The notes under the pieces: model-generated | Told to the model about the DNA's origin: nothing | Database searches by the model: none | What the model saw: the letters and a program-made list of their open reading frames with translations, nothing else | In this document: positions 16,000 to 58,018 of the stretch, in pieces | Position numbering within the stretch: the first letter of the stretch is position 1 | How the letters are laid out: each line of letters begins with the position of its first letter | Translations under genes and position numbers: made by a program | Assembly (NCBI RefSeq): GCF_001742225.1 | Contig: NZ_CP017078.1 | Span: 62,001-126,000 of the forward strand | Source of the DNA: Novosphingobium resinovorum | GTDB taxonomy: Bacteria > Pseudomonadota > Alphaproteobacteria > Sphingomonadales > Sphingomonadaceae | Direction of reading: 5' to 3' | Length of the DNA: 64,000 bases

Positions 16000-16012
16000 G
16001 GGGGAGCGCTCC

Positions 16013-34128: not shown

Positions 34129-34138
34129 AGGATTTACC

Positions 34139-34660: not shown

Positions 34661-35085
34661 CAACCGACATCATCATCTACCACAATCCCGAATGCGGCAC
34701 CTCGCGCAATGCGTTGGCCATGATCCGCAATGCAGGCATCGAACCGCATGTCATCGAATATTTGAAGACTCCGCCATCGCGGGATTTGTTGATCGAGCTG
34801 ATCGGCCGCGCCGGTATCAGCCCGCGCGATCTGTTGCGCGAGAAGGGCACGCCCTTTGCCGATCTGGACCTGGCCGATATCTCGCTTTCGGATGACGCGC
34901 TGGTCGATGCGATGATGGCACATCCAATCCTCATCAATCGGCCGCTGGTGGTTTCGCCATTGGGCGTGAAGCTGTGCCGCCCTTCCGAAGCGGTGCTTGA
35001 TCTGTTGCCTACGGCGCAGCTCGGGGCATTTGCCAAGGAAGATGGCGAGCAAATCGTAGACGCTTCGGGCGAGCGCGTCGTCTGA
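34657..35085 (+). CDS. arsC: Arsenate reductase, glutaredoxin-coupled type
   Basis: 142 residues with the ArsC/Spx fold: catalytic cysteine in [20 protein letters not shown] and the arginine-rich substrate site [20 protein letters not shown]. It uses glutathione and glutaredoxin. Having two unrelated arsenate reductases in tandem is redundant in reaction but differs in electron source. Start and stop overlap with its neighbours by four bases and one base. The decayed arsC remnant at 14413 belongs to this type. Confidence 0.93.
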
Positions 35086-36371
35086 TGCTGCTGGCCGTTG
35101 CAATCTTTGCCGCCACGATCATTCTCGTGATCTGGCAACCAAAGGGCTTGGGCATTGGGTGGAGCGCCATGGGCGGCGCAGCACTGGCGCTGATCCTGGG
35201 CGTGGTGTCGCTGTCAGATGTGCCTGTCGTTTGGGATATTGTCTGGAATGCCACCGGCGCCTTCGTGGCGATCATCATCATCAGCCTGCTGCTCGATGAA
35301 GCCGGGTTTTTCGAGTGGGCGGCGCTGCATGTCGCCCGCTGGGGTAGAGGCAACGGTCGCCTTCTTTTCGCGCTGGTCGTGCTGCTCGGCGCCGCGGTGT
35401 CGTCCCTGTTCGCCAACGATGGCGCGGCATTGATCCTGACGCCTATCGTCATCGCTATGCTGAGGGCCCTGGGATACGGTGACAAAGCAATGCTGGCGTT
35501 CGTCATGGCTGCAGGGTTCATCGCAGATACCGCGAGCTTGCCACTGGTCGTCTCGAACCTCGTCAACATCGTTTCGGCGGACTTCTTCAACATCGGCTTC
35601 GGCGAATATGCGGGTGTGATGGTCCCAGTCGACCTCGTGGCGATCGCCGCGACCTTGGGGATGCTGCTGTTGTTTTTCCGGCGCGACCTTCCCGGTGCCT
35701 ATGACCTCGGCCAACTGCGCGCGCCCCGCGAAGCAATCCGCGATGTCGCCACATTTCGCGCAGGGTGGATCGTCCTGGCTCTGCTATTGGCGGGTTTCTT
35801 CCTGCTCGAACCGTTGGGAGTTCCCGTCAGCGCTGTCGCCGCTGTAGGCGCTAGCCTGTTGCTGGTGATCGCGGGGCGCGGCCATGTGATCCAAACCGGC
35901 AAAGTGCTGCGCGGTGCGCCCTGGCAAGTCGTCATCTTCTCCCTGGGCATGTACCTCGTCGTGTACGGCTTGCGGAATGCCGGGCTGACCGACCATCTGG
36001 CGGCGCTGCTCGATCGCACCGCTCAAGGCGGCGTGTGGGGCGCTGCATTCGGCACCGGTATCATTGCGGCCGTACTGTCCTCGATCATGAACAACATGCC
36101 GACCGTCCTTGTGGGCGCGCTGTCGATCGACGCGACCCACGCCACGGGCGCGGTGAGGGAAGCGATGATCTACGCCAACGTGATCGGGTGTGATCTCGGC
36201 CCAAAGATTACGCCGATCGGCTCGCTGGCGACGCTGCTGTGGCTGCATGTCCTCGGCCAGAAGGGCATCCGCATTGGATGGGGCTACTACTTCAAGGTGG
36301 GAATCACGCTCACCGTACCCATCCTGCTCATAACCCTTGCGGCCCTGGCGCTGCGAATTGGACTTGCCTGA
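35085..36371 (+). CDS. arsB: ArsB arsenite efflux pump
   Basis: 428 residues, about eleven helices, with ArsB signatures [49 protein letters not shown] and [23 protein letters not shown]. It expels arsenite using the proton gradient. No arsA ATPase gene is present, so it works alone. Its ATG overlaps the preceding stop by one base, and its stop touches the arsH start. Confidence 0.95.
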
Positions 36372-37113
36372 TGCCGCTTCTCGATCTGATCAACCCCGAT
36401 CATCTTCCCGCGCTTGATCTCACCTTCGTGCGCGAACGGCCCGCCCTGGGCCTCGGTGCAAGTGATTCCGCTCCCCGCATCCTGCTTCTGTACGGATCGC
36501 TGCGGGAGCGGTCCTTCTCCCGGCTAGCGGTCGAAGAGGCTCGCGGCTCCTGCGCCTGTTCGGAGCTGAGACGCGGATATTCGACCCTTCCACGCTGCCA
36601 CTGCCGGATCAGGTGAAGAATGACGATCATCCGGCCATCCACGAATTGCGTGAGTTGTCGATGTGGTCGGAAGGCCAGGTATGGTGCAGCCCTGAACGGC
36701 ATGGACAGATTACCGGCATCATGAAGGCGCAGATCGACCATCTGCCTCTGGAAATGGCGGGGAGGCGGCCCACGCAAGGCCGCACGCTTGCCGTCATGCA
36801 GGTGTCCGGAGGTTCGCAGTCCTTCAATTCGGTGAACACCTTGCGCCTGCTCGGGCGCTGGATGCGTATGTTCACGATCCCGAACCAATCTTCGGTAGCA
36901 ATGGCCTATAAGGAATTCGATGAGGCGGGGCGTATGAAGCCGTCAGCCTATTACGACCGCATCGTGGACGTTATGGAAGAACTGGTCCGCTTCACGATTC
37001 TGTTGCGTCCCCATGCTGCTCAGCTTGTCGATCGCTACTCGGAACGCAAGCAAGCAGGGGCGCCAATCGACGCTGCCACCGATCACTCAGCGATAGCGAT
37101 CTCCGGCAGGTGA
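36371..37113 (+). pseudogene. arsH: arsH organoarsenical oxidase gene, frameshifted
   Basis: From ATG 36371: [13 protein letters not shown] ... [21 protein letters not shown]. After about 36540 the native frame is lost; it resumes in another phase with FGAETRIFD, then [38 protein letters not shown] and [18 protein letters not shown] to 37113. Restoring one base between GAGGCTCG and CGGCTCCTG joins them. ArsH is an NADPH:FMN oxidoreductase that oxidises trivalent organoarsenicals. The rest of the operon is intact, so this is either the only lesion or a sequencing slip. Confidence 0.87.
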
Positions 37114-37441
37114 ATCGCAGCCCTGGGGTGAGGTTGTCCGTAAACTAAACCACCCCTTAGTTGTCAGGGCACCTTCGAGCGGCTGAGCGTCAGGTTTTAG
37201 AGAGATTCGTCGTTCCTCGTCGTTATCAGAAACGACTGCAATGTCCCAGCCCCGGTCATAAACGGACTGACCGCTCATTGGCAGGCCATTTTCCCACTCG
37301 AACGGCTTGGGTGGGCGCAAGCGTATATCAGTGCCCCTTTCATGTAATGCCCTGAGTCCGAGGCCGAAGCCTCCTCGGGGGCCAGTGCCGAATTGAGGAG
37401 AGGGGGAAGGGGCAGGCGAGCAACCCGAAAGGAGCCGCCCC
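37114..37441. other. Junction between ars island and conjugative element backbone
   Basis: No supported gene. A leftward 120-codon frame (37449-37087) has a plausible middle (SVYDRGWDIAVVSDNDEERR) but no family match and would overlap the start of the ATPase gene. No direct repeats or integrase were found that would define an element end. Ends with an AGGAG ribosome site at 37427 for the ATPase. Confidence 0.5.
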
Positions 37442-38656
37442 ATGTCCAACGTCGTGAAACTGCCGGGACCGCCAGCGCCGCCGCGCTGCGCGGTTCCTAT
37501 CGGCCAAACCGTCTATGGCGCCCTCGAACTGGATCTCGACCGCGTCCTTGCGGGACGCATGCTTGTCCAGGGCGGGTCCGGTGCCGGCAAGAGCCAGACC
37601 ATGCGCCGCATCGTCGAAGAGGCTTTCGACTACGTTCAGACCATGATCGTCGATCCCGAAGGCGAGTTCGGCAATCTCGCCGCGCACATCGGCGCGACGA
37701 CGCTCAAGGCAGCTGAAATCGCGGCCGATGGCCTGACCGCCGCCGCAACGCGCGCGCGTCACCATCGTATCGCCCTTCATCTCGATCTCACCGACCTCGA
37801 CCCCGAACAACGGATCATCAAGGCATCGGCCTTCTTCGCCGGTCTCGTCGGTGCTCCGCGCGAGGACTGGAAGCACACGGTTCTCGTCGCGATCGACGAA
37901 GGACACCTGCTTGCCCCCCATCAAGCCGGTTCCGCCCGCGATGCGGAAACCCGCCGTCTCGGCGTCGCCACGCTCACTGACTTGTGCGCCCGAGGCCGCA
38001 AACGCGGGATCGCGCCCATCATCGCGACCCAGCGCCTTGCCAAGCTCTCCAGCTCCGTCGTCTCCGAGCTTCAGAACTTCCTCATCGGCATCAATGTCTT
38101 CGACCGCGACATCATCCGCGCCGCCGACATTCTGGGCTTCAGCCGCAGCGAAGCCGAAAAGCTGCGTACCTTACGCGCCGGCGAGTTCTACGCCTTCGGC
38201 CCCGCGCTCACCCGCACCCCGATCATGGCCAAGATCGACCAGACCATCACCGAGCATCTCGGCGCCACCCCTCAGCTGCATGGCGCGGCCGACCTCGACC
38301 ACTCCGAGGCTGAGAAACTCCTCGACCTCGAGCATCTTCGCGAAGCGCCCAGCCAGCGCGACGACAGCCTGAAGTCTCGCGGCAGCCGCGCCCTCGATGC
38401 CTTCCTGCTCGATCCTATCGCACCCACGGCCACGGCAATCTGCCTGGCGCTGAAAGGGATTTCGCCCAACGCCACGACGGCCAACGAACTGGCCAAGCAC
38501 CTCGGCATCTCGCGCGAGGCCGTGGATCAGGCGCTGGACGTCCTCTCCGCGCTTTCGGCGGTGGATACCATGCCCCGGGCCGATGATCGCATGGCGCGCC
38601 TCCATACGCGGCTGCGCGCCCGTCTCAGTGATGTGCACCTGGTGGGTCTGTCATGA
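37442..38656 (+). CDS. HerA/DUF87-type ATPase
   Basis: 404 residues. Residues 25-60 contain Walker A QGGSGAGKSQ, followed by IVDPEGEFGNLAAHIGA, a VLVAIDEGHLL Walker B (near residue 140), sensor region ARGRKRGIAPIIATQRLAKL and VFDRDIIRAADILGFS, then a C-terminal winged-helix-like segment (ANELAKHLGISREAVDQALD). This is the FtsK/HerA superfamily of DNA pumps, found in DNA repair, phage defence and plasmid transfer. Its stop overlaps the start of the Myb-repeat gene (ATGA), so they likely work together. Not the conjugation coupling protein, which is at 52146. Confidence 0.85.
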   Translation: MSNVVKLPGPPAPPRCAVPIGQTVYGALELDLDRVLAGRMLVQGGSGAGKSQTMRRIVEEAFDYVQTMIVDPEGEFGNLAAHIGATTLKAAEIAADGLTAAATRARHHRIALHLDLTDLDPEQRIIKASAFFAGLVGAPREDWKHTVLVAIDEGHLLAPHQAGSARDAETRRLGVATLTDLCARGRKRGIAPIIATQRLAKLSSSVVSELQNFLIGINVFDRDIIRAADILGFSRSEAEKLRTLRAGEFYAFGPALTRTPIMAKIDQTITEHLGATPQLHGAADLDHSEAEKLLDLEHLREAPSQRDDSLKSRGSRALDAFLLDPIAPTATAICLALKGISPNATTANELAKHLGISREAVDQALDVLSALSAVDTMPRADDRMARLHTRLRARLSDVHLVGLS

Positions 38657-39897
38657 CCGACGACACCGCACCCATCATCGTCGAGCTTGTTTCAATCGCG
38701 GACCCGTTACCGAAGGCATCTGCGCCGCTGGGGGAGATGCAGTACCGATCCGACAGCTGGACCCCGCAGGAGGTTCGCACCCTGCGCCGGCTGTTCAACG
38801 ATGACACCCCGATGCCGGAAATCGCCGAGGCCCTGGGACGCGGCCTGCATGGTGTCAGGGACAAGGTCTGCACCCTTGGCCTGCGCCGCCATTCGACACG
38901 GCCCTGGAACGAGCTTGAAGACCACGAACTGATCCAGACTTATGGACAGGAGCCTGCAGCCACGATTGCCGCGCGGTTCGGCCGCTCATGTGGCGCGGTC
39001 TATGCCCGTGCCGCGATCCTTGGCCTCAGCGAAGCGGCAGCACCGGCATGGACGCCATGGGAAGATGCGCAGCTGCGCGCTGGCTTTGCCGCCGACATTC
39101 CGACAGCGCAGGTCGCCCTGATAATCGGCAGACCCCATTCGGGTGTCTATAGCCGTGCCGGCAAGCTGGGCATCAGGCATGCCAGCACCCCCAGGGGATG
39201 GACAAACGCCGAGATCGAACGCGCCATCGAACTTGTTGAAGCCGGACACAGCTACGCCGAGATCGGCACGATCCTTGGCACGGAAGGCTTCCCGGCCCGG
39301 ACCAAGCCGTCGCTTCAGGGACTGATGAAGCGAACCGGGCAGGGCAAGGGTTGGGGCCGCGCCTGGATGCCCGAGGAAGATGAACTGCTCATCAAAGCCT
39401 ATCGCGACAACGCCAGCCTGACGCCTCTTCGCAATCGTCTGGGTCGATCGCTCTTCTCGATCCGCTGGCGAGCGGAATATCTGAACCTTCGCGGCACCCA
39501 TGCCCGGTCCAAAGGCTTCCGCCTTGGTCCTGACTGGTCCGAGGCCGACGAAGCTCGGCTTCGCCGCGACTACGGCAAGATCCCGACGCCTGAACTTGCC
39601 TGCCAGATGGGCCGGACGCGCGCGGCCATCTTCACCCGCGCGAATATCCTCGGCCTTGCCAATGAAGGGCGTCAGCGCTGGACGAGCGACCATCTGGCCG
39701 CCCTGCGGATCGCGCATGAGCATGGCATCAGCCTCACAGACCTTGCCGCGGCCCTCGGCCGTGAAGTCGATGCTCTTCACAAATATGCCGCAAAACAGGG
39801 CCTCGCATTCGGCCGTCGCCCCCGCAGGCCAGTGCCTCCGACACTCGCTGACATCCTGAATCTGCCCGAGGCCGCGAAAGGGAAGGGGGAGGGGTGA
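38653..39897 (+). CDS. Multi-repeat Myb/SANT-like DNA-binding protein
   Basis: 414 residues built of about seven repeats of roughly 45-55 residues, each starting with a Trp and acidic residues (WTPQEVRTLRRLF, WNELEDHELIQTY, WTPWEDAQLRAGF, WTNAEIERAIELV, WMPEEDELLIKAY, WSEADEARLRRDY, WTSDHLAALRIAH) and ending with a helix like GRGLHGVRDKVCTLGL. This is the Myb/SANT or GcrA-like HTH pattern. Single copies are common in bacteria; seven in tandem suggest it lies along a long DNA site. Coupled by overlap to the HerA-like ATPase. Function unknown. Confidence 0.8.
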   Translation: MTDDTAPIIVELVSIADPLPKASAPLGEMQYRSDSWTPQEVRTLRRLFNDDTPMPEIAEALGRGLHGVRDKVCTLGLRRHSTRPWNELEDHELIQTYGQEPAATIAARFGRSCGAVYARAAILGLSEAAAPAWTPWEDAQLRAGFAADIPTAQVALIIGRPHSGVYSRAGKLGIRHASTPRGWTNAEIERAIELVEAGHSYAEIGTILGTEGFPARTKPSLQGLMKRTGQGKGWGRAWMPEEDELLIKAYRDNASLTPLRNRLGRSLFSIRWRAEYLNLRGTHARSKGFRLGPDWSEADEARLRRDYGKIPTPELACQMGRTRAAIFTRANILGLANEGRQRWTSDHLAALRIAHEHGISLTDLAAALGREVDALHKYAAKQGLAFGRRPRRPVPPTLADILNLPEAAKGKGEG

Positions 39898-39938
39898 AGG
39901 CGAAGGCAAGGATTTTCCGCGCCAGCAGGAGATGCAGC

Positions 39939-40166
39939 ATGTGCCCCAAAACTCAGCCGACTGCCGCCCCGAACGCCAACGAAGGCATCAAACTCGTCCT
40001 CTGGTCCGACGGAACCTGGTGCTGGCATGACGACTTCCGCGAGGAAGACTGGACCTTCATGTCCGACGATTACGAAGTGATCGACATGGGGGACATGCCG
40101 CGCGTCGAACGGTTTGCCCGCGAGGATGCGCAGCTTTGCGATGATGTTCTCGAAGAACTGCGCTGA
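39939..40166 (+). CDS. Small acidic hypothetical protein
   Basis: 75 residues from ATG 39939 with AGGAG seven bases upstream; the frame is open to 39894 but without a ribosome site. Rich in Asp, Glu and Trp (WSDGTWCWHDDFREEDWTF). No family recognised. It lies between the Myb-repeat gene and the PP-loop gene, 11 bases before the latter, so probably part of that operon. Confidence 0.6.
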   Translation: MCPKTQPTAAPNANEGIKLVLWSDGTWCWHDDFREEDWTFMSDDYEVIDMGDMPRVERFAREDAQLCDDVLEELR

Positions 40167-40176
40167 GAGCGGGAAC

Positions 40177-41130
40177 GTGGGAGGCCGCGTCCCGGACTAT
40201 CTCCTGCCGCCTCGGGCCCCGAACGTCCTCGCCTACGGCGTCGGTGTCGATTCCACCGCACTTCTGGTCGAACTGGAAGCGCGCGGCGAAAAGCCCGACC
40301 TTGTCATCACCGCCGATACGGGCGTCGAGAAACCGGCCACTTACGAGTACCTCGACGTCATCCGGCCATGGATGGCCGCACGAGGCATCCCGTTCGAAAT
40401 CGTGCGCTATCAACCGCGCCGCTTCAAACACTGGCCGCCTTACTACTCTCTGCTCGAAATGGCGCTCACGAACGCTACGCTGCCCAGCAAATCGCTCGGC
40501 GGTTCAAGCTGTTCGCTGAAATATAAGAAATCTCCACAGGACGCCTTCCTGAAGACATGGCAGCCGGCGGTCGACGCATGGGCGAGGGACCAGAAAGTGA
40601 CGCGGCTGATCGGCTTCGATGCCGGCAAGCGCGACACGCTGCGCTACACCCACGCGGTCAAGATTGACGATCCGCTCTACGACTATCGCTACCCGCTGCG
40701 CGAATGGGGCATGGACCGCGAAGCCTGCGAACGGCGGATCGCCGCCGCTGGCCTCCCGGTTCCGCCTAAATCGAGCTGCTGGTTCTGCATCGGAATGACC
40801 CCGCCAGAGGTTCGAGACCTGCCGGTATGGTGCCTTCGCCTGATCGTTCTTGTCGAAGCCCGCGCCGCGCCCCGGCTGCACACGGTCGAAGGTCTCTGGC
40901 GCAAATCCACGCGAGCGAGGCCGGGGCGAATGACGGATTTCATCCGCCACGAACGGCTTTTGCCCGCCGAGGACATCGACCAGATCATCAGCGAAGCCCC
41001 GCTCGACCTGATCCGATTTCAGGACGTCGCCGCATCGATCCCCGTCAACGAGCGCCCGACCATGCGCAGCTGGATCGAGCGCTTCAACGCTGCGGTGCCC
41101 GCATCGCAGCGTCCCCGTCTCGCCGCCTGA
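40177..41130 (+). CDS. PP-loop (PAPS-reductase-like) enzyme
   Basis: About 317 residues. The nucleotide loop is YGVGVDSTALLVEL, the SGGxDS P-P loop with V replacing the second G. DTGVEKPATYEYLDVI follows, as in CysH-type proteins. Two cysteine clusters, GGSSCSLKYKK and KSSCWFCIGMTPPEV, could hold zinc or Fe-S. Related enzymes include PAPS reductases and DndC-type DNA sulfur-modification proteins. Start is unsure: GTG 40177 avoids overlap with the preceding gene, ATG 40141 and 40144 are alternatives. It is not part of an assimilatory sulfate operon, so a modification or defence role is more likely. Confidence 0.78.
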   Translation: MGGRVPDYLLPPRAPNVLAYGVGVDSTALLVELEARGEKPDLVITADTGVEKPATYEYLDVIRPWMAARGIPFEIVRYQPRRFKHWPPYYSLLEMALTNATLPSKSLGGSSCSLKYKKSPQDAFLKTWQPAVDAWARDQKVTRLIGFDAGKRDTLRYTHAVKIDDPLYDYRYPLREWGMDREACERRIAAAGLPVPPKSSCWFCIGMTPPEVRDLPVWCLRLIVLVEARAAPRLHTVEGLWRKSTRARPGRMTDFIRHERLLPAEDIDQIISEAPLDLIRFQDVAASIPVNERPTMRSWIERFNAAVPASQRPRLAA

Positions 41131-41147
41131 CCCACAGGAGAATTGCC

Positions 41148-41516
41148 ATGTCCCTCGCAACTGCCACCGCCGGCATGTCCGAACGGGAAATCATCGCCCG
41201 TCTCAACGATCGCTGCCGCCATGGCCTCGATCGCACCGGACGGATCGTCATTACCCGCACCTGCCTTGGCACCTTCGCCAAGAACACCATGGCCGAGCTT
41301 GTCGCCCAAGCCGAGATCCTCGCCGAAGTCCGCAAGTTCACATATCCCAACGACGACAGGACCGAGCGGGAGCGTGGCCAGATCGAATACCGGGGAACAA
41401 CCGTCTATTTCCAGATCGACGCCTACGACGCCGATCTGAAATGGGGTTCGCCTGACCCCACTGATGCCAGCGTCACGCGCCGCGTCATGACAATCATGGT
41501 GCGCGAAGATCTATAG
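41148..41516 (+). CDS. DUF3768 protein
   Basis: 122 residues from ATG 41148 with AGGAG at 41137. Matches DUF3768: IARLNDRCRHGLDRTGRIVITR at the N-terminus (quoted in two parts in the family as IARLND and the T-R-G core) and the C-terminal FQIDAYDADLKWGSPDP and RVMTIMVRED. Common on alphaproteobacterial plasmids and integrative elements; function unknown. Follows the PP-loop gene closely. Confidence 0.8.
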   Translation: MSLATATAGMSEREIIARLNDRCRHGLDRTGRIVITRTCLGTFAKNTMAELVAQAEILAEVRKFTYPNDDRTERERGQIEYRGTTVYFQIDAYDADLKWGSPDPTDASVTRRVMTIMVREDL

Positions 41517-41553
41517 CTTTCACTACCCACGGGCCGCATATTGTCAGCCAGAG

Positions 41554-41582
41554 TTGACAACACGGGGCCTGTCAACTAGGGT
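41554..41582 (+). promoter_or_regulatory. Promoter and operator of the toxin-antitoxin pair
   Basis: TTGACA (41554-41559), 17-base spacer, TAGGGT (41577-41582), then the toxin ATG at 41589. GTTGAC (41553-41558) and GTCAAC (41571-41576) form a dyad lying over the -35 and spacer: a natural site for autorepression by the antitoxin. Confidence 0.6.
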
Positions 41583-41588
41583 TATCAG

Positions 41589-41885
41589 ATGATCGAGATG
41601 ATCCAGTCTAACACCTTCAACCAATGGTTGGCTGGTTTGCGCGATTCAAATGCGAAAGCCCGGATACAAGTCCGTCTGCGTAGATTGAGCCTTGGAAATG
41701 CAGGCGATGTTAAACCCGTAGGGGACGGAATATCCGAACTTCGTATCGATTATGGGCCGGGCTATCGCGTGTATTATATGAAGCGCGGGCCAATCCTAAT
41801 TGTCCTGCTTTGTGGTGGTGACAAGAGCAGTCAGGCTCGCGACATAGCGCAGGCCAAATCAATTGCGGCCGCATGGAAGGAATGA
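41589..41885 (+). CDS. RelE/ParE-superfamily toxin (HigB-like)
   Basis: 98 residues of the phage-derived Gp49/HigB-like group: FNQWLAGLRDSNAKARIQVR, LGNAGDVKPVGDGISELRID, GPGYRVYYMKRGP and LLCGGDKSSQ, RDIAQAK near the end. Such toxins are mRNA interferases. It precedes the antitoxin by four bases, the reversed order typical of higBA. The promoter carries a dyad. Likely an addiction module stabilising the element. Confidence 0.9.
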   Translation: MIEMIQSNTFNQWLAGLRDSNAKARIQVRLRRLSLGNAGDVKPVGDGISELRIDYGPGYRVYYMKRGPILIVLLCGGDKSSQARDIAQAKSIAAAWKE

Positions 41886-41889
41886 AACC

Positions 41890-42186
41890 ATGGACGTGAC
41901 TTTTAGCCGTTACGATCCCGCCGACTTCCTCAAGACTGAAGAGGACATTGCGGCATATCTGCAAGCCGCTGCGGAAGATGGCGATACCGCTTTGATCGCA
42001 GCAGCTCTTGGGGACGTGGTACGTGCTCGCAATATTAGCAAGCTGTCCCGCGATACCGGGCTTAGTCGGGAGGGTATCTACAAGGCCCTGTCGGGTGAAG
42101 GAAATCCGAGTTTCGCGACTATCGGCAAGATTGCCGGCGCGTTGGGGCTGCGCATCAGTTTCCAACCCAACCAAACGGCGATCTAA
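41890..42186 (+). CDS. HigA-like antitoxin with HTH
   Basis: 98 residues from ATG 41890. N-terminal toxin-binding part (RYDPADFLKTEEDIAAYLQA) and a C-terminal Cro/C1-type HTH (ISKLSRDTGLSREGIYKAL, then PSFATIGKIAGALGL). It neutralises the RelE-type toxin and probably represses the shared promoter at 41554. Note that the upstream open frame starting at 41863 overlaps the toxin and is not used. Confidence 0.9.
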   Translation: MDVTFSRYDPADFLKTEEDIAAYLQAAAEDGDTALIAAALGDVVRARNISKLSRDTGLSREGIYKALSGEGNPSFATIGKIAGALGLRISFQPNQTAI

Positions 42187-42309
42187 TCCGAGAGGCGGTG
42201 CCGGGCGGTCGCGTTTACCCGGCACCTGCCAGCGCCTCTAACACCAATACGGTCTTGTTCAAGTCGCCGGGCTGTTGCTGCGACAAATCGTCATAATCCT
42301 AACGGACTT

Positions 42310-42566: not shown

Positions 42567-43421
42567 TCAGTAGCCGACCTCTGGAGGTCGGATTTGGGGA
42601 TAGCCTGCCAACACAGCGCCGACCTCCTGTGTCACTCGCGATGCAATTCCACGGGATTGCAGAAGATGGTCCAGACATTCTAGGACCGCCTTTAACTTCT
42701 GCGGCGCAGCCGTGGGGACCATTGCGTTGCGCAGCCGGGCTGGCTGCTTTTGAAAACTGCGATTAAACAGGCGATCGTGATGGGCACAAATGTTGCGCAA
42801 GTCGACGAGGCATTCCAGCCAGTTCGTGAAAATCGCATCCGATGGCACTCCGAACTGCGTGGCTATCTTCGTCCGTATCGTGCCGTTGAGGCACTGGAAG
42901 AGCCGGCTCGCGGCGCCGAATGTCAGGAATTCCTTCATTGTCCAGATCGGCGGGAGTGCTGGCGCGCTATAGGTTTGGCGATAATGTTTGGCCCGTTGAT
43001 CGCGCGACCTCAGGTAAAGCGCAACGAATGTCTGGACCGCGTCGAGGTTGGCGGCGGCATCTCGAAATGCGCTTAGGTCGTAATATGGATGGCTGCCATG
43101 TGAATCGCTCAACGCTTCTGACATGGCGTTTCGCAGGAGCAACTCGAACTGCCCTACCGCCGCAAAACATACGTCCCGCAGCCGTATATCGCATTCATAT
43201 AAGCCGAGAATATCTCTGTCGCTTACGGCCGGTTCAAAAGGGCGTCCGGGCAACGCGAGTTGGCGACGGCTCAGGAAATAAATGCGTAGCCGTTCGTAGC
43301 CGATCAGATCAATTTCATGGCCAGCAATGTTCGGATCAGCGATGACTAGCCCTCGAGATGAGAGATGCGCTATACGCTGCGCTGCCGTCGCATGGGGCTT
43401 ATTGTAGGGATTAAGAGCCAT
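42567..43421 (-). CDS. Abi-family (HEPN) abortive infection protein
   Basis: 284 residues. N-terminus KPHATAAQRIAHLSSRGLVI followed by IGYERLRIYFL, the Abi-2/AbiD pattern; middle FELLLRNAMSEAL; C-terminal HEPN ribonuclease motif in LRNICAHHDRLFNR (R-N-x-x-x-H). Such proteins act in phage exclusion by RNA cleavage after infection. It stands alone, as is normal for Abi-2 genes. Codon use is a little more AT-rich than its neighbours, fitting a separate origin. Confidence 0.83.
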   Translation of the reverse strand: MALNPYNKPHATAAQRIAHLSSRGLVIADPNIAGHEIDLIGYERLRIYFLSRRQLALPGRPFEPAVSDRDILGLYECDIRLRDVCFAAVGQFELLLRNAMSEALSDSHGSHPYYDLSAFRDAAANLDAVQTFVALYLRSRDQRAKHYRQTYSAPALPPIWTMKEFLTFGAASRLFQCLNGTIRTKIATQFGVPSDAIFTNWLECLVDLRNICAHHDRLFNRSFQKQPARLRNAMVPTAAPQKLKAVLECLDHLLQSRGIASRVTQEVGAVLAGYPQIRPPEVGY

Positions 43422-46118: not shown

Positions 46119-46565
46119 ATGAACATCGGTACTTTCGCCCTGAAGAGCGGCCAGCTCATCGGTTCGATCGCAACCCTCACCGTCGACCTTGCCCGCCTTG
46201 GCCTTCGCCCCGTCGAAAGCGATAACGAGAAGGCCCCCGCGTTCGAGATCATGGCGCTTAACGTCGCCCGCAAGTGGGTGCAGGTCGGCGCGCTTTGGGA
46301 AGCGACCAGCAATTCGACCGGCGAGGTTTTCTATCAGGGCAGCCTCGACGATCCCAGCCTGCCCGAGAAGATGGCAATCATGGTCTTTGGTGACGACGAG
46401 GACGGCTATCGCGTCGTCTGGAACCGTCCGGCCCCCATGCGCCAGAACATGGACGGCACCCGCCAGACCCGCCGCCGCCAGCGTGACGACAATTTCGGTG
46501 AAGGCAACGCAACCGAAGATGGCCGCATCGCACAGGGCGAAGAAGATCACGTCCCCGCGTTCTAA
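46119..46565 (+). CDS. DUF736 protein
   Basis: 148 residues from ATG 46119 (AGGAG eight bases before; ATG 46113 is too close). Starts MNIGTFALKSGQLIGSIATL, typical DUF736, with WVQVGALWEATSN and FYQGSLDDPSLPEKMAIMVF. It has a longer acidic and basic C-terminal tail (RQTRRRQRDDNFGEGN). DUF736 genes are markers of alphaproteobacterial conjugative plasmids and integrative elements, often close to tra genes; role unknown. Confidence 0.88.
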   Translation: MNIGTFALKSGQLIGSIATLTVDLARLGLRPVESDNEKAPAFEIMALNVARKWVQVGALWEATSNSTGEVFYQGSLDDPSLPEKMAIMVFGDDEDGYRVVWNRPAPMRQNMDGTRQTRRRQRDDNFGEGNATEDGRIAQGEEDHVPAF

Positions 46566-46639: not shown

Positions 46640-47788
46640 ATGACCAAGGAAACGAATAACCGCAGCTATAGCAGTTTTGCCGACCTCGCCAAGGCCATCG
46701 GCACCACGCCCGCCGAACTGCGCAAGCAGTATCTGGACAAGGCGATTGCCGACACCATGCGCGGCGAGCAGGAAGCAGGAACCGCAGCCACGCCCGACGA
46801 GCTGGCAGCATTGGCGCGGGAGGCAGAGATTGCCGACATGATCGCGCAAGATTCCGTGCTCGACAGCTTCACCGAGGCATTCGGCGACGTGACCGCGCTT
46901 TCCATCCTCGACATAGGGGGCGAGCGGCAGGAACTGGACATGCCCGAGCCCGCCGAGGCGCAGGCAGAATGTCACGCCATCATCAACACCATCTTTGACC
47001 TTTTCCGCGATACCCGCCTTGAGCCGAGCGCGCAGGCGATTGCGTGGGGCATCGTCAATTCGTTTTACTACGAAGCGGAGAAGCTGGCCCGCGAGGAGGA
47101 CACGCTTTGCCGTGACCTGAAAGACCGGATCGAGCAGGACGACCGCAGCGAAATCTATGCAACAGAGATGGAAGATTTGCAGGTCCGCGCGCAAACCAAG
47201 ATGGAGCAGCGCGCCGCGATCGAATGCATGCGCGACTATGCCGCCAACTGCTACTGTTCGCAGACCGGCCGCCCATGGAGTACCGCGCGCGGATCGAGGG
47301 TTTCGAGCGTCACCACCGCAAGCCAGATCGCATCGGCCGATTTCCTCAAGGCCCGAGCAACCGCCATGCGCGAGAAGCGCAACCCCACCGGCCCGCTTGT
47401 CGTCTTTTCCGGCGGTCAGGAATGGCACGACTACCAGCAGCTTTACGCCCGCCTTGACCAGATCAAGGCCCGCATTCCGAGCATGACCCTTTGCACCACC
47501 GGCCAGCGCAAGGGATGCGACGCCATCGCCGCCGCTTGGGCCGCACAAGCTGGCGTGCCGATTGTCACCTTTGCCCCGAACGCCCAGCGCTTTGGAAAGA
47601 GCGCCGGTTTCAAGCGCAATGACCAGCTTGTCAGCCTCCGGCCCGTCGAAGCCATCATCTGCCAAGGCACCGGCATTCAGTCGCACTTGCTGGACGAACT
47701 GAAGGACGCAGGCGTTCCGGTTCACGCCTTCCGCTACGATGCACAGGCATCCATGCCCGCCGAAGCCAAGCGGCAGAATTGGGGATGA
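46640..47788 (+). CDS. DUF2493/SLOG-domain protein
   Basis: 382 residues. An N-terminal helical region (residues 1-250, rich in Ala, Glu) is followed by a Rossmann-like DUF2493/SLOG domain: LVVFSGGQEWHDYQQLYARL, TTGQRKGCDAIAAAWAAQAG and AIICQGTGIQSHLLDELKDA. SLOG proteins bind nucleotides or their derivatives. Common next to DUF736 genes on such elements. Terminator-like hairpin follows at 47841. Confidence 0.8.
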   Translation: MTKETNNRSYSSFADLAKAIGTTPAELRKQYLDKAIADTMRGEQEAGTAATPDELAALAREAEIADMIAQDSVLDSFTEAFGDVTALSILDIGGERQELDMPEPAEAQAECHAIINTIFDLFRDTRLEPSAQAIAWGIVNSFYYEAEKLAREEDTLCRDLKDRIEQDDRSEIYATEMEDLQVRAQTKMEQRAAIECMRDYAANCYCSQTGRPWSTARGSRVSSVTTASQIASADFLKARATAMREKRNPTGPLVVFSGGQEWHDYQQLYARLDQIKARIPSMTLCTTGQRKGCDAIAAAWAAQAGVPIVTFAPNAQRFGKSAGFKRNDQLVSLRPVEAIICQGTGIQSHLLDELKDAGVPVHAFRYDAQASMPAEAKRQNWG

Positions 47789-50927: not shown

Positions 50928-50965
50928 TCTGATGCCGTCCCGACCGCTGCGCGACCCCACCCGGC

Positions 50966-51871: not shown

Positions 51872-52156
51872 ATGAGAAGTACCCAGCGATCCGTAAGGTT
51901 CGACAAACACGATCTTGACCGGCTCGACGCGATCGCTGCCGACCAAGACAGATCCTTTGCCGATCTCGTAAGGTTCATCGTCAAGCGTCACCTGGACGGT
52001 GGCGTACTCGATAATGCCAGCCACCTCCGACTAGCGAGAGTGTGTGAGTACACACAGGCTGCCGTCGACACGATCCTGCGCGAAGAACACCCCGATCATC
52101 GAAAACTCGTCCTAGAGGAAACGACCCGTCGCATGGAGCGCTATCATGGCGCGTAA
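51872..52156 (+). CDS. Ribbon-helix-helix oriT-binding accessory protein
   Basis: 94 residues from ATG 51872: STQRSVRFDKHDLDRLDAIA, then DQDRSFADLVRFIVKRHLDG, an RHH fold. Small RHH proteins in this place (like TraY, TrwA) bind oriT and help the relaxase. It overlaps the coupling-protein gene by 11 bases, so translation is coupled. Confidence 0.8.
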   Translation: MRSTQRSVRFDKHDLDRLDAIAADQDRSFADLVRFIVKRHLDGGVLDNASHLRLARVCEYTQAAVDTILREEHPDHRKLVLEETTRRMERYHGA

Positions 52157-54584
52157 GGACGGCAAAAAAGACCGCGAAGACATTCGCGACGACGGTCGGC
52201 CCGTCCCTCTCAAACACCATTCCGCGCGCGGTGACACCCCCCGTAACAACGGCAATTTCGTGCGTGGGAGCCAGTTGCTCAACACCCAAGTCATCATGTG
52301 GCTGCAGGGCGCAAAAATGCCCTTCCTCATGTGGCTCGGAATGTTTGCCCTCTCCTACTTCACGATCCTCTCGTTCACGCTCGACGAGAACAACTTCCAG
52401 CTCATCTGCATGCGCGTGCTGTCGTGGCTTTGGGACTGGTGTGCCCTCGATCCCATGAAGCAGGCTAACCTGCAGCTTCCCGACCATACCGTGCGGCACA
52501 CATTCATGGGATACGTCCCCTATGTGCCCGAAGTAGCTCTCGCCTGGCACAAGGCGATGCGCGGCATTATCGGCTCGGCTCTTATCGCCTCCTTCGCGAC
52601 CATCCCGTCATCCATCTGGTACGTTGATTTCTCCCGTCGCCGGGGCGGCTCTATCATGGAAGAACGCCACGAACGCGGTGCGATGCTGGTGGACCGGGAT
52701 CTGCTCTACAAGGAGATCAGCCAGCACAACCAAACCAAATTCGTCGAAGAAGCCAAAGACCTCTTCCCGGACCTGTCAGCAAAGGGTGTCCTTGCCCTAC
52801 CATTCGCGGCTCGCAAGGCAGCCGGAATACACCATCCCTACCACATCGCTGGCATCCCCTACCCGCATCGGCTCGAGCAATCCCACACCATGCTGCTGGG
52901 CACCACCGGCACCGGCAAAACTACCGTCCTGCGTAAGCACCTGGAACAGATGCGTGAGCGCGAAGACAATGCCGTCGTGTTCGATCTTACCGGCGCTTAC
53001 GTCGAGGCGTTCTATCACCCCGAGAGAGACACGATCCTCAATCCCATGGACGTGCGCTGCCCGGCCTGGTCGATCTTCAACGATTGCCAAACCTACAGCG
53101 AGTTCACGGCCGCAGCCGCCGCGCTGATACCCTCCGATGGCGGCTCGTCGGAACCGTTCTGGGCCCTCGCAGCGCGTACCCTCTTCATCGAAATGTGCAT
53201 GAAGCTGATCGAGAAGGGACAGACCTCCAATCAGGCCCTCGCGGACAACCTGATGACCGCTGACCTCAAGCAGGTCCACCGTCATCTGCAGAAGACGATT
53301 GCGGACCCGCTGACTGCTCCAGAAGCGGCTCGCATGGCGGAATCGATCCGCGCCGTCTTCAACACCAATGCACAGGCGCTGCGCTTCCTTCCCGACGACG
53401 GTAAGCCCTACTCCATCAAGCAGTGGATCACCGGCGACAAGGCCCCCGGATCGATCCTCTTCATCACTTGCACCTACACCGACCTCGAGATGAACAAGGC
53501 GCTCCTGACCTTGTGGTCGAACCTTGCCATCCACTCGCTCATGACGATGAAAAAGACCCGCTCATTGCGGACATGGTTCATGTTCGACGAGCTGGGCGCC
53601 TTGCACCGCCTTCCTGCCATCGAAGACGGCCTTCAGACTGCCCGAAACTTTGGCGGCGCCATGATCCTTGGCCTTCACTCCTTCGACAAGCTGGTGCAGG
53701 TCTACGGCGAAGAAAACGCCCGCAATCTGTCCTCGCTCGCGCGTACCAAGCTGATGCTCGCCGCAGCCGATCTCGACACGGCCGAGCAGTGCGCCCGCTA
53801 TATCGGCAATCGCGAAATTCGCCAGATGGATGAGGGCTATTCTTACGGCTACAATTCCACTCGCGACGCATCGACGCTGACGCCTCGCAAGCAGATCGAA
53901 CCACTCGTCATTCCCGACGACATCATGAACCTGCCCTCGATGCACGGCTTCGTGAAATTCCCTGACGGTTTCCCTGCTGCGCGCGTCCGTCTGCAGTGGC
54001 AGCAATACCCGCAGGTCGCGGAAGGTTTCATTCGGCGTCCACCGAACAAGCCGGACGATCCAGACGGCAAGGTTCGCGGAGGTGGGGGTAAGCCGAAGGG
54101 TGGTGATGACGGTGGGCGTGGTGAATATATCGCGCTTAGCGACGAGGAAATGGCGGCGCGAGATGCGCCGATTGCGCTTGCCGCCAACATCCTTTCGCAA
54201 CCCTCGGAGCAGGATCGCGAAGCACAGGAGGGACGCGATCCCAATGCGCGTGAAGCCCTTGATCGCATGGACCCTGGTGCAAGCCATTCCGCAACCACCA
54301 GAGGCGAGGCGGCCAAGGGGGATGCAGTCGACCATAACGGTCTCGACACACCAGAGCGCTCAGGCATTCGTTCCAACAACGCGGTTTCCATTCGCGATGA
54401 CCAGGAGGTCGCCTCGCGATCATCACACAGGGACGTTGAGGTTGCTCGCGCTTCGAGCAACCCCTTGGAGAAGGATCTTGGCGTGCGCGAAGCGCGCGAC
54501 GCAGGCGTTGGCACCGATGCATCCCAGAGCCATCACCACGATCATCCCGATCTTGGTGATTCCGGCATCGGGATGGGGGACTGA
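52146..54584 (+). CDS. traD: TraD/TrwB-type conjugation coupling protein
   Basis: 812 residues. Two N-terminal membrane helices (about residues 55-80 and 140-165), then a VirD4/TraD ATPase: Walker A LLGTTGTGKTTVLR (near residue 255), LTGAYVEAFYHPERDTILNP, GSSEPFWALAARTLF, Walker B TWFMFDELGALHRLP and QTARNFGGAMILGLHS. The C-terminal 200 residues are charged and disordered. It delivers the relaxase-DNA complex to the secretion channel. Directly followed by the relaxase gene. Confidence 0.93.
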   Translation: MARKDGKKDREDIRDDGRPVPLKHHSARGDTPRNNGNFVRGSQLLNTQVIMWLQGAKMPFLMWLGMFALSYFTILSFTLDENNFQLICMRVLSWLWDWCALDPMKQANLQLPDHTVRHTFMGYVPYVPEVALAWHKAMRGIIGSALIASFATIPSSIWYVDFSRRRGGSIMEERHERGAMLVDRDLLYKEISQHNQTKFVEEAKDLFPDLSAKGVLALPFAARKAAGIHHPYHIAGIPYPHRLEQSHTMLLGTTGTGKTTVLRKHLEQMREREDNAVVFDLTGAYVEAFYHPERDTILNPMDVRCPAWSIFNDCQTYSEFTAAAAALIPSDGGSSEPFWALAARTLFIEMCMKLIEKGQTSNQALADNLMTADLKQVHRHLQKTIADPLTAPEAARMAESIRAVFNTNAQALRFLPDDGKPYSIKQWITGDKAPGSILFITCTYTDLEMNKALLTLWSNLAIHSLMTMKKTRSLRTWFMFDELGALHRLPAIEDGLQTARNFGGAMILGLHSFDKLVQVYGEENARNLSSLARTKLMLAAADLDTAEQCARYIGNREIRQMDEGYSYGYNSTRDASTLTPRKQIEPLVIPDDIMNLPSMHGFVKFPDGFPAARVRLQWQQYPQVAEGFIRRPPNKPDDPDGKVRGGGGKPKGGDDGGRGEYIALSDEEMAARDAPIALAANILSQPSEQDREAQEGRDPNAREALDRMDPGASHSATTRGEAAKGDAVDHNGLDTPERSGIRSNNAVSIRDDQEVASRSSHRDVEVARASSNPLEKDLGVREARDAGVGTDASQSHHHDHPDLGDSGIGMGD

Positions 54585-54586: not shown

Positions 54587-57500
54587 ATGCACTCCATCGC
54601 AGCAGTTCGTTCCGCTGGTGGTGCCGCCAAATACTTTACCAACGACGATTTCGTTGCCGGGGATTACTACACCAACGAGCAGGCAGGAGAGGTAAGTCAA
54701 TGGGGTGGTGAAGGCCTTGCCGGCAGCGCGATCGCCGATGGCTCCGCTGTTACCCGCGAAGCGTTCGAGAAGGTTCTTTTGGGTGAGACGCCCACTGGCG
54801 AACAGATTGAGGCGAAGGAGAACCGTAGACCGGGCTACGACCTGACCTTCTCGGCGCCAAAATCTGTGTCGATCATGGCCTACATTGCCGGTGACAAGCG
54901 GCTCGTGGAAGCGTTCGCATTATCCGTCAAGGATACCATGGCCTGGGTCGAACGGAACCTCGCCGAAGGTCGCAAGACGGTCGACGGCAAGACCACCGCC
55001 GTTGCGACTGGAAACCTGGTATATGCCATGTTCCAGCACGACACGAGCCGGGCGCTCGATCCCCAGCTCCATTACCATTCGATCGTCGCCAACATGACAC
55101 GCATGCCAGACGGCAAATGGCAGGCGCTCCACGCCGACAAAATCTGGTCTAACAACACCGTCATCGGCTCGGTCCAGCATTCCTACCTTCGCGGTAGGGT
55201 GGAGGAATTGGGCTATAAGGTTCGCCTCGACGGCAAGCACGGAACTTTCGAGATTGTCGATGTGCCCAAGGAGGTGATCGACGCCTTCAGCACCCGCCGC
55301 GAAGAGATCCTATTGAAGTCCGAGCAGCTCGGGATCGTGTCCCCCAAGGGCCGCGACAGCGTCACCGTTAATACGCGCGACCCCAAGCTGAACGTCGAAG
55401 ACCGTGAAAGCATGGTCAAAGGGTGGGTCGATCGAGCAGAAACTTTCGGCTTCGACGGTAAGGACGTCCTTGCCACCGCTTTGCGCGCCTCTCGCGATCA
55501 ACCGGAAAACCTCGCCGTCCGTGGCTACAAGGCCATGCTCGAGGTGGTGAACACCGCGCGCGAATTTGTCTCCGGCTTTCTGCGGTCCCCTGAACCACTG
55601 GTCGATGCCGGCATTGCGCGTCTGGCCCGCTCGCCTGGCGATGCCCGTGCCCAGCTCGCCGTTGCCTCGGCCGTTCGCATTCTCAGCCAGCGTGAGGCCG
55701 CTTTTCAGGTCCATCAGGTTTCCAAGACGGCTCTCGATCTTGGCCTCAAGGGCGTCACGATCGATAACGTCGAAGCGCGGATCGATCGGCTGATCAAGAA
55801 TGGCGATCTCGTTTCAGGTCAGATCCAACACAAGGGCCAGATGGTTGACGCTGTCACTACGTCCGAAGCGTTGAAGATCGAGCAATCGATCCTTGATCAC
55901 GTCGATGCCGGCAAAGGTAAAGGCACCTCGATCGTTGACGCTGCCAGTGCGACGTCCCGGCTTCAGGAAGCCGCCTCGCCCCGGGAACTGAATCAGGGGC
56001 AACTCGTGGCCGCGACCATGATCGTTTCCAGCGAGGATCGCTACGTCGTCGTCCAGGGCGTCGCCGGTGCCGGCAAGTCTACCATGCTGCAGACCGTTGC
56101 CGCCGTTGCTCGCGATGAGGGCAAGCAAGTCCTCGGTCTCGCGTTCCAGAACAAGATGGTCGGCGACATGCGCGAGGGCATGGTGCCCAAGCACCTCACG
56201 GCCGACGACATGGAAAAGGCCGGGGTTTCGGCTCAGACGATCGCCTCGTTCATCTGGCAGAACGAGAAATTCCTCAGCGACCCGAGCAGTCCGGGGGCGC
56301 AGCAGCGGCGGGACGAACTGGCCGGCACGATCGTCGTCGTCGACGAAACTTCCATGGTTTCCAGCGAGGATATGCTCAAGCTGATGCGCATCACCGAAGC
56401 TCTCGGCATCGAGAAGGTCGCCTTCGTCGGCGACCGCCAACAGCTATCCTCGATCGACGCGGGCAAATCCTTTGCCATGGTACAGGCCGGCGGGATCACC
56501 ATGGCGCGCATGGATCAGAACGTGCGTATCAATCCAGACAACAAGCAACTCCTGACCGTAGCGGCGCTTGCCAACACTGGCCGGGCCGGTGCTGCACTGA
56601 AAGTGCTGGGCGATAATGTCAGTGAACATTCCGAACCGGCGAAACAGGCGGCCGAGACATGGTTAGCCCTCTCTGCAGAGGAACGGGCTATTACGGCTGT
56701 CTTCGTTTCGGGGCGAGAGGGACGTTCCGAGATCAATACCGAAATTCAGGAAGGATTGCGTCAGGAAGGCACTCTGAAGGGAGATGGCCTGGACGTCACT
56801 GTCCATGACCGGGTCAGCAAAGAGCGTGAGCAGTTACGCTATGCCCATCACTATACTGTCGGCCAGACCCTGACGGTGACGGGGCAAATCCGAGAAGTCG
56901 GGCTAGGGCGCGGGCAGTATCAGGTCAGCCGCATCTTCGACAACGGCAAGATCCAACTCACAGGCCCCAATGGTCGCAACTTGCGCTTCGATCCACAGAA
57001 AATCGATCCCAGCATCACCCGTAGCCGTCTCGAACTCTCCAACCTCGAAACGCTCAGAATTTATGAAGGCGATACAATCCGCTGGACCACCAACGACAAG
57101 GATCGCGGTCTGGACAATGCCGCACTGGCAAAGATCGTCTCCATCGAGGGGGGAAGCGTCACCGTCGAAACCGCGAATAACGAGCGCCTGACACTGGAGC
57201 GCGGTGATCCCATGCTCAGTAGGATCGGCCTCGCCTACGCCCTCAATATGCACATGGCTCAAGGTGTCACGGCCGATAGGGGGATCGGCGTGATGCTCTC
57301 CTATGAGCATAACCTCTCGAACCAGCGCCTTTTCAACGTCCTCGTTACTCGTGTCCGCGATGGCCTCACCATGATCGTCGACGATCGCGAGAAGCTGGAA
57401 TGGCGACTGAACTCCAATCCCGGCGACAAGACCTCCTCTCTGGAAAGCACCGGGCAGCTGGACATCGATGGTGTCGATGCCAAGCAGGAAGCGGCAGACG

Positions 57501-58018
57501 CTGCACTTACCGCCGCTTTCGATGCGCTTGACGCAGAGAGCGGTGCCGTTGGCATGCCAAACGGCCCTGGCAGCGAAGCCATTGCTGATTTGGGCGACCT
57601 GCCCCCAATGCCCGCAGCCGATTCACACGACGGCTGCGCTGGCACTGGCAGCGATGGCAACGAGAACCCGGCCGCAGGGCGCAGTGACGTTGAGACGAGC
57701 CAGGACGGCATGTCCGATCCCGGTTCAATGGATCTGGATGACCTGCCCCCGATGGGACAATCGGAAACTGACTATTCCACCTTCGATACAAGTGCCGATC
57801 AGATCTACGACCCCGGCGCTGATGAGCCCCCTGCCCCCGCGCAGGACAAGAAAGACGCCGATCCGCTCCGGCAAGCACTGCTGGATCACCTCGAGGGGGA
57901 TGGGCTCGGCATCGTCGACACCACCATTGATGACCTCACCGGCATTCCGCCGATGCCTGGCCGTGATGACGGCCAAATTCCGGGCCTGCCCGAAAAGAAC
58001 CTGGGACTCGATCTATGA
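54587..58018 (+). CDS. MOB-F relaxase-helicase (TraI/TrwC type)
   Basis: 1143 residues. N-terminal relaxase (about 1-300): GGAAKYFTNDDFVAGDYYTN (catalytic Tyr), GYDLTFSAPKSVSIMA, and the metal site DPQLHYHSIVANM. TraI-type helicase follows: Walker A VQGVAGAGKSTML, VVVDETSMVSSEDMLKLM, VGDRQQLSSIDAG and AYALNMHMAQGVTADRGIGV. The acidic C-tail repeats D-L-P-P-M (57596, 57740) and G-I-P-P-M (57941). It nicks oriT and unwinds the strand to be moved. No vir/trb mating genes are in the window. Confidence 0.95.
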   Translation: MHSIAAVRSAGGAAKYFTNDDFVAGDYYTNEQAGEVSQWGGEGLAGSAIADGSAVTREAFEKVLLGETPTGEQIEAKENRRPGYDLTFSAPKSVSIMAYIAGDKRLVEAFALSVKDTMAWVERNLAEGRKTVDGKTTAVATGNLVYAMFQHDTSRALDPQLHYHSIVANMTRMPDGKWQALHADKIWSNNTVIGSVQHSYLRGRVEELGYKVRLDGKHGTFEIVDVPKEVIDAFSTRREEILLKSEQLGIVSPKGRDSVTVNTRDPKLNVEDRESMVKGWVDRAETFGFDGKDVLATALRASRDQPENLAVRGYKAMLEVVNTAREFVSGFLRSPEPLVDAGIARLARSPGDARAQLAVASAVRILSQREAAFQVHQVSKTALDLGLKGVTIDNVEARIDRLIKNGDLVSGQIQHKGQMVDAVTTSEALKIEQSILDHVDAGKGKGTSIVDAASATSRLQEAASPRELNQGQLVAATMIVSSEDRYVVVQGVAGAGKSTMLQTVAAVARDEGKQVLGLAFQNKMVGDMREGMVPKHLTADDMEKAGVSAQTIASFIWQNEKFLSDPSSPGAQQRRDELAGTIVVVDETSMVSSEDMLKLMRITEALGIEKVAFVGDRQQLSSIDAGKSFAMVQAGGITMARMDQNVRINPDNKQLLTVAALANTGRAGAALKVLGDNVSEHSEPAKQAAETWLALSAEERAITAVFVSGREGRSEINTEIQEGLRQEGTLKGDGLDVTVHDRVSKEREQLRYAHHYTVGQTLTVTGQIREVGLGRGQYQVSRIFDNGKIQLTGPNGRNLRFDPQKIDPSITRSRLELSNLETLRIYEGDTIRWTTNDKDRGLDNAALAKIVSIEGGSVTVETANNERLTLERGDPMLSRIGLAYALNMHMAQGVTADRGIGVMLSYEHNLSNQRLFNVLVTRVRDGLTMIVDDREKLEWRLNSNPGDKTSSLESTGQLDIDGVDAKQEAADAALTAAFDALDAESGAVGMPNGPGSEAIADLGDLPPMPAADSHDGCAGTGSDGNENPAAGRSDVETSQDGMSDPGSMDLDDLPPMGQSETDYSTFDTSADQIYDPGADEPPAPAQDKKDADPLRQALLDHLEGDGLGIVDTTIDDLTGIPPMPGRDDGQIPGLPEKNLGLDL

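Follow-up and report, generated by a model that had tools for sequence, protein, structure and literature searches.

HerA-type ATPase and HTH-repeat genes beside a PP-loop enzyme gene in sphingomonad plasmids: a possible establishment array

The Tdp system is made up of TdpA, the nuclease TdpB and TdpC, which is a PP-loop enzyme. The protection familiar from the leading regions of plasmids consists mostly of anti-restriction proteins, anti-CRISPRs and orphan methylases. HerA/FtsK capture and BRC systems are described as joining HerA with multi-helix-turn-helix (multi-HTH) proteins and nucleases (PMC10853773; PMC12839542), with BRC additionally having GNAT and TGT (PMC12839542). In leading regions anti-defence genes are over-represented, as are orphan methylases and SSB and toxin–antitoxin (TA) genes (PMC11541004). 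The locus analysed here lies in a window of 64,000 nucleotides, bases 62001–126000 of contig C4 (354,886 bases) of the Novosphingobium resinovorum genome (6.9 Mb, five contigs). Five co-directional genes on the + strand at 37442–41516 of the window encode a HerA-type ATPase, an HTH-repeat protein, a small acidic protein, a PP-loop enzyme and a DUF3768 protein (Table 1). From the genes, their folds, their pairing, their neighbours and their position, we propose, with a probability of about 0.43, that the locus is part of a leading-region establishment or anti-restriction array of sphingomonad MOBF plasmids, comprising a sulfur-type DNA-modifying enzyme and a translocase–adaptor pair.

The locus resembles BRC in its HerA-class translocase and multi-HTH protein, to which the arrays of relatives add TGT-like (DpdA) and Mom genes (PMC12839542). 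It differs from BRC in being a plasmid array 5′ of traD with a PP-loop enzyme added. The Pfam scans covered 19 window proteins and 20 proteins of relatives, the PADLOC scan six window proteins; PglZ, DUF6079, BrxC-like ORC/Cdc6, STAND NTPase and DUF4007 were not matched in these runs, and the matches of TraD and TrwC to nSTAND_NTPase5 were below cut-off. With Tdp (TdpAB structures 8wet and 8wfd) the locus shares a HerA-class ATPase and a PP-loop enzyme, and it is distinguished by the HTH-repeat partner, by an ATPase without the HAS barrel and by the lack of a nuclease: as the sequence-only reading of this DNA had stated, the five genes match no nuclease family above the curated cut-off. DndC, SspD and BrxP are similar to the PP-loop enzyme in their PAPS-reductase fold, the presence of conserved cysteines and a weak SspD match; unlike Dnd and Ssp, the locus has no DndD/E or SspB/C partner matched among the six window proteins, and its relatives have Mom and DpdA neighbours. 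Where HerA–NurA, SIR2–HerA and DUF4297–HerA have a nuclease or NADase effector, the downstream partner here is the HTH-repeat protein (24 of 25 non-redundant loci), an NYN gene just upstream being seen in L009 only among ten annotated loci, and the ATPase is without a HAS barrel. The mad1–mad8 set of MADS is not present among the six proteins scanned, which gave mad8 and mad1 matches only, and PglZ, DndD/E, SIR2 and DUF4297 were unmatched among the genes scanned. As far as tested, the locus is not a member of the known Dnd, SIR2–HerA or BREX systems and probably not one of Tdp. It is like leading-region anti-defence islands in its place and co-orientation relative to traD or relaxase and in the orphan methylases, SSB and TA genes of relatives; it differs from them in the Mom-, DpdA- and PP-loop-type genes and the HerA–HTH pair, and the regions read held no ArdA-type annotation (PMC11541004). 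Among the titles and abstract openings listed we found none on this array or on DUF3768, which is weak evidence given the poor coverage of subscription journals.

The ATPase matches DUF87 above the Pfam cut-off (E = 5.5e-9) and carries the motifs GGSGAGKS, IDEGH and ATQR; a HerA-type motor core with Walker A and B motifs, Gln sensor and arginine finger places it among the HerA/FtsK-class ATPases. Its AlphaFold2 model has a predicted local distance difference test score (pLDDT) of 82 and its top PDB matches are HerA translocases, the core aligning from residue 5–18 onto target residues 101–157 of HerA structure entries. An N-terminal HAS barrel was not found in the model, in which the first strand is at residue 17. 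In PADLOC the ATPase matches mad8 at E = 5e-17. A role as a conjugative type IV coupling protein (T4CP) was considered and rejected, with a TrwB_AAD_bind score of 16.4 bits against a cut-off of 20.5. The ATPase, for which the sequence-only reading had considered a role in conjugation alone, is not the coupling protein: the plasmid encodes a separate TraD as well as TrwC; the NCBI name of the gene, ‘type IV secretory system conjugative DNA transfer’, is a domain-level label. HerA also occurs in two unannotated records classed as phage, from human faecal samples, which are doubtful phage evidence. A chromosome-type HerA-like ATPase with about 42% identity over the motor is encoded elsewhere in the same genome (G000:C1:3421878–3422705; L002), and paralogues of this type lie between murI and rpsD on S. 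meliloti pSymB and beside ppc on a Sphingobium plasmid (L014 7983–9497, L015 7950–9404).

The proteins of the locus are conserved across tens of plasmids, and their distribution was followed in PLSDB and in 149 genomes of the family (own genome included). The plasmid tables for HerA, HTH, PP-loop, Mom, DpdA, TraD and relaxase were entered by hand from the rows listed. They use 22 of 46 matching HerA records (the other 24 are below 60% identity and mostly the chromosome-type paralogue), 24 of 30 for the HTH gene, 39 of 126 for PP-loop (the best 39 among the 60 rows listed; the remaining 21, weaker or split, were left out), 22 of 84 for Mom (60% identity or more), 34 of 91 for DpdA (from the first 40 of 50 listed, leaving out six outside the PP-loop and Mom lists), 34 of 60 listed TraD rows (1941 matched) and six of 60 listed relaxase rows (at least 5000 matched). 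Many of these records come from near relatives (for instance CP009430/CP013345 and CP065669/CP065714), and PLSDB strains may be duplicated among the 149 genomes.

The HTH-repeat protein contains seven HTH/Myb-like units as counted by eye, with Pfam HTH_38 and Myb above cut-off, in agreement with its earlier description as a multi-Myb protein; the ATGA overlap with the ATPase gene that had been reported is likewise present, at 38653. It matches PHROG 323 (‘D5-like’) at E = 8e-51 and mad1 in PADLOC at E = 0.04 only, and a single small sequence match was obtained among solved structures (2lvs, E = 3e-4). Pairing with HerA is nearly invariant. In PLSDB the HTH gene accompanies HerA in all 22 HerA records (64% identity or more), on the same strand and at a gap of 0–75 bp, and only two of the 24 typed HTH records lack HerA (CP000700 and CP030354, partial copies). 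Among the 149 genomes HerA occurs in five and the HTH gene is confined to those five, adjacent to HerA (hypergeometric probability 1.7e-9). In loci non-redundant at 95% (25, from 75) the HTH gene stands beside HerA in 24, L072 being the exception, and a PP-loop sequence lies downstream of HerA on the same strand in 21 (partial in at least two, L047 and L079), so the gene order is kept in other elements, which the sequence-only reading had named as a check. The correlation of pairwise identities is 0.85 for HerA–HTH, 0.64 for HerA–PP-loop and 0.54 for HTH–PP-loop (19 non-redundant of 45 loci). The locus consists of two units, HerA–HTH and PP-loop–DUF3768. Alphaproteobacterial HerA relatives at about 40% identity (L081, L082 and L084) are followed by proteins that are HTH-type by eye, with Pfam HTH_17 just below cut-off in two and no match in the third; their sequence link to the window protein is weak (E = 0.009), and L082 has an 87-residue open reading frame (ORF) in between. 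In L072 (4535–8994), from a Caulobacter metagenome-assembled genome (MAG), HerA has no HTH gene; its neighbours there encode a D12 DNA methylase, an MT-A70-like protein (by eye) and a PAPS reductase, which together resemble a phage set.

The acidic and PP-loop genes follow the pair closely, as had been read, with starts revised to ATG 39939 and probably GTG 40177: the PP-loop ORF opens at TTG 40114 and GAGAGCGGG precedes the GTG, from which the product would be 317 residues. The DUF3768 gene at the end had not been named in the sequence-only reading. The fold and a GxDS motif assign the enzyme to the PAPS-reductase/PP-loop superfamily, and its top Foldseek matches include the tRNA thiolases TtuA and NcsA. 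A search of viral contigs with the PP-loop alignment gave six distant loci, five of which served as alignment rows only. The four of 25 loci without a downstream PP-loop sequence are L072 and three examined over 3.8, 8.4 and 10.0 kb. Typed PP-loop genes are present on 17 of the 22 HerA plasmids; three of the other five have partial or split copies and two have none among the rows listed. In the family genomes PP-loop occurs in 13 of 149, and in all five with HerA it lies within 4 kb of it. A single Dnd-like operon was rejected on the finding that 22 of the 39 typed PP-loop plasmids are without HerA. Insertions break the PP-loop gene in several plasmids; for that reason it is unlikely to be essential for maintenance.

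These PP-loop genes are split at one codon site (Cys110-Ser-Leu) in L107 (1224–16626; from G000:C3), L111, L112, L113, L114, L115, L009, L032 and L079, L009 and L111 being one plasmid. The left insert end reads ...TTAGGTC and the right one GACCTAATGC; both are seen in L107, L111, L112 and L114, the right end only in L113 and the left in L009, L032, L079 and L115. Tyrosine-recombinase genes, presumably Tn554-like, lie inside the inserts of L107 (about 380, 606 and 602 residues by eye), L111, L112, L113 and L115, with none annotated in L114, and the PP-loop gene seems to be favoured as a site of attachment. The cargo is varied: Piwi and SMEK genes and a YhhA/YhhB cyclophane RiPP (ribosomally synthesized and post-translationally modified peptide) in L111 (2219–16099); TIR genes in L112 (7534–16376), with metal genes just outside; cytochrome P450, rubredoxin and acyl-CoA dehydrogenase between IS21 copies in L113 (1606–15624), with ars genes just outside; ars and czc-type metal genes in L114 (1622–12366); and metal-efflux genes in L115 (1503–22325).

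Between the two pairs is an exchangeable slot. In 21 loci it holds a GHKL ATPase (nine), an acidic and a DUF5983-type protein (three), an N6-methylase (three), Mom alone (one) or none of these (five), and Mom also lies within the slot in three of the GHKL or methylase loci; where it holds none of these, the PP-loop sequence (partial in L047) begins 191–461 bp after the HTH gene with no query gene between. Homology of the window to L003 jumps from L003 10749 to 11570 and the slot gene is missing, probably through a deletion, which leaves the window PP-loop ORF open with the ribosome-binding site of that gene in front of it. The window copy of the array is reduced: it has no slot gene, the genome gave no Mom match and the DpdA-like gene is present only as three fragments on a different contig (G000:C3:551519–552012).

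Arrays of relatives also carry Mom-like, DpdA-like, PAPS-reductase-like and N6-methylase genes. In L005 DpdA (PF23859, E = 5e-10) and Mom (PF25680, E = 1e-22; phrog_1384, Mom-like), which we take to be of the GNAT type, come right after DUF3768. Of the 17 plasmids with both genes typed, 13 have Mom no more than 2 kb from PP-loop and all have it within 10 kb; these are 17 of the 22 Mom plasmids, the other five having partial or split PP-loop copies, and Mom beside PP-loop occurs without HerA too. The five Mom genomes of 149 all fall among the 13 with PP-loop, five of six copies being within 10 kb of it and the sixth (G027) on another contig, and seven of the nine DpdA genomes are among the same 13. 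The DNA modification or restriction role first suggested is supported in part, as regards modification, by these Mom, DpdA and N6-methylase neighbours; its other part, one Dnd-like restriction or defence module, is not. L005 has a further PAPS-reductase-like gene, with a QueC-like stretch, 2 kb beyond DpdA and Mom (17844–18965), and several arrays have such a gene close to these two; the array of L012 has a reverse-transcriptase gene (2136–4013). On one Pseudomonas aeruginosa plasmid a homologue (40% identity over 59%) has DNA cytosine methylase, SSB and DUF932 genes in its vicinity.

The position of the array is mostly fixed. PP-loop and TraD share a strand in 28 of 28 plasmids, and in 26 PP-loop lies within 40 kb 5′ of TraD (median 18 kb), about 4.4 being expected from random placement; in the window the distance is 11.0 kb. 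Five further plasmids with a relaxase gave 5/5 on the same strand and four within 40 kb (0.9 expected), making 33/33 co-oriented and 30/33 within 40 kb 5′ of traD or relaxase (33 of the 39 typed plasmids). The order in R388 is oriT–trwA–trwB–trwC, and because our gene order is read against it, the array would lie on the leading side. Inverted repeats are present at 50893–51061.

On the proposed reading, the PP-loop enzyme would adenylate and then thiolate or otherwise hypermodify plasmid DNA, at base or backbone, perhaps using an Fe–S cluster on its invariant cysteines, and the modified plasmid would escape host restriction after entry. HerA may form a hexameric double-stranded DNA translocase, which the seven-unit HTH protein would load at plasmid-specific sites, and HerA would then move along or present plasmid DNA for modification during establishment. 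The substrate, the sulfur chemistry, the hexamer, its loading and the joint action of the pairs are inferred steps of this scheme. A bolder form of the proposal, which we consider doubtful, is that a plasmid-borne HerA/FtsK ‘capture’ machine has come to protect instead of attacking: a hexamer without nuclease, loaded at plasmid-specific sites by the HTH protein, would deliver PP-loop sulfur-type modification (plus Mom and DpdA types in relatives) along entering plasmid DNA in a phage-like self-hypermodification. In these arrays genes for hypermodification of the phage type (Mom, DpdA) come together with an Fe–S-type PP-loop enzyme and the HerA–HTH pair, and their place with respect to traD is mostly fixed. 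If plasmid DNA is indeed modified, conjugative plasmids would share the practice of DNA hypermodification with phages, and HerA motors would protect as well as attack; the reading also offers testable functions for DUF3768, DUF87 and HTH-repeat genes now called hypothetical.

Several observations weigh against the proposed establishment array. HerA could be compared with traD or relaxase in 14 of 22 plasmids, with 13 on the same strand and nine within 40 kb (12 if 60 kb is allowed), and in CP033227 it is on the opposite strand and far off; typed traD or relaxase rows are missing for six of the 39 typed PP-loop plasmids and for eight of the 22 with HerA. MOB-suite called seven of the 46 HerA-match records conjugative, ten mobilizable and 29 non-mobilizable, of which CP117026 and CP060123 match a MobF relaxase. 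The putative leading-region placement depends on gene order and on the R388 order, and SSB and PRTRC queries had no match in the window or 12 kb to either side. Nuclease-like neighbours exist: among ten annotated loci (L003–L012) a thermonuclease-family gene lies upstream of HerA in L005 (3139–3657), L008, L010 and L012, and in L009 HerA is immediately preceded by a gene with an NYN domain (6991–7830). The PP-loop enzyme matches SspD weakly (PADLOC hidden Markov model, E = 5e-6), and a PDB sequence search gave no relative. Because records are related and strains may overlap, the chance figures overstate independence.

The PP-loop–DUF3768 pair is commoner than HerA–HTH, 22 of 39 typed PP-loop plasmids having no HerA, and this favours the main competing explanation, that the pairs are unrelated establishment functions sharing a crowded region without a common pathway. 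It is further favoured by identity correlations of PP-loop with HerA (0.64) and HTH (0.54) below the 0.85 of the pair itself, by the exchangeable slot and by CP009430 and CP013345, in which PP-loop precedes HerA. We nevertheless judge it somewhat unlikely, in view of the PP-loop gene within 4 kb of HerA in all five HerA genomes and the five of 21 loci in which PP-loop sequence follows the HTH gene at 191–461 bp with no query gene between. The same HerA-free plasmids, which manage without HerA–HTH, argue against the pair as a maintenance machine, a translocase with a site-specific binder that, in the manner of FtsK/TcpA motors, would serve partition, the resolution of dimers or the termination of replication; so do the match of HerA as two pieces in CP009430 and CP013345 and the Caulobacter MAG, where HerA without the HTH gene adjoins D12 methylase and PAPS-reductase genes, and we regard such a machine as improbable. 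Kinship with HerA- or phosphorothioate-based phage defence (Tdp, Dnd, MADS or BREX-related capture), with the nuclease lost or supplied from elsewhere, would agree with the mad8 and SspD matches, but PglZ, DndD/E, SIR2 and DUF4297 were unmatched among the genes scanned and the array tracks traD and relaxase. We regard it as very improbable, and anti-restriction or establishment fits better than phage defence because of position and neighbours. The PP-loop fold family also thiolates tRNA, and with TtuA and NcsA among the top Foldseek matches the enzyme could perform tRNA 2-thiolation, the array being translation-protection cargo; we give this very little credence.

Table 1. Features of the locus and its context (window coordinates)
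Feature	Position	Strand	Remarks
HerA/FtsK-class ATPase (DUF87), 404 aa	37442..38656	+	no N-terminal HAS barrel; HTH-like C-terminus (weak)
HTH/Myb-repeat DNA-binding protein (predicted), seven units, 414 aa	38653..39897	+	ATGA overlap with HerA
Small acidic protein, 75 aa	39939..40166	+	phrog_5116, E = 9e-11
Inferred deletion scar, about 0.8 kb relative to L003/L018	40163..40190		slot gene (267 aa, DUF5983 C-terminus) gone
PP-loop enzyme, PAPS/APS-reductase and Fe–S sulfurtransferase fold	40177..41130	+	four invariant Cys
DUF3768 protein	41148..41516	+	E = 1.5e-19 (Pfam); as a rule next downstream of the PP-loop gene
Left limit of homology to L003 and L004	37350..37365		arsenic-type genes upstream (by eye; FMN_red by Pfam)
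DUF736 gene (context)	46119..46562	+	order as in L003
DUF2493 gene (context)	46640..47788	+	DUF736–DUF2493 order as in L003
TraD/TrwB coupling protein (context)	52146..54584	+	E = 3e-159
TrwC/MOBF relaxase (context)	54587..58018	+	E = 2e-79

A promoter scan at the locus gave no + strand candidate, and the two terminator-like sites in 36900–42300 are both on the − strand. The contig L016, also named Novosphingobium resinovorum, encodes a 100% identical HerA in a layout matching the window, with the slot gene absent there too. Arsenic-type genes (by eye) at 33799–37357 are directly upstream of HerA in the window, the last stretch being 77% identical to the arsH region of L004, and in L004 arsenic genes (12590–18220) are directly downstream of a truncated PP-loop gene; because of these two placements, ars islands seem to have entered the array repeatedly. 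After the array, on the − strand, come a Gp49-like/HTH addiction pair (41589–42186; the Gp49-like match is just below cut-off) and an AbiD gene (42567–43421; Abi_2, E = 1e-36).

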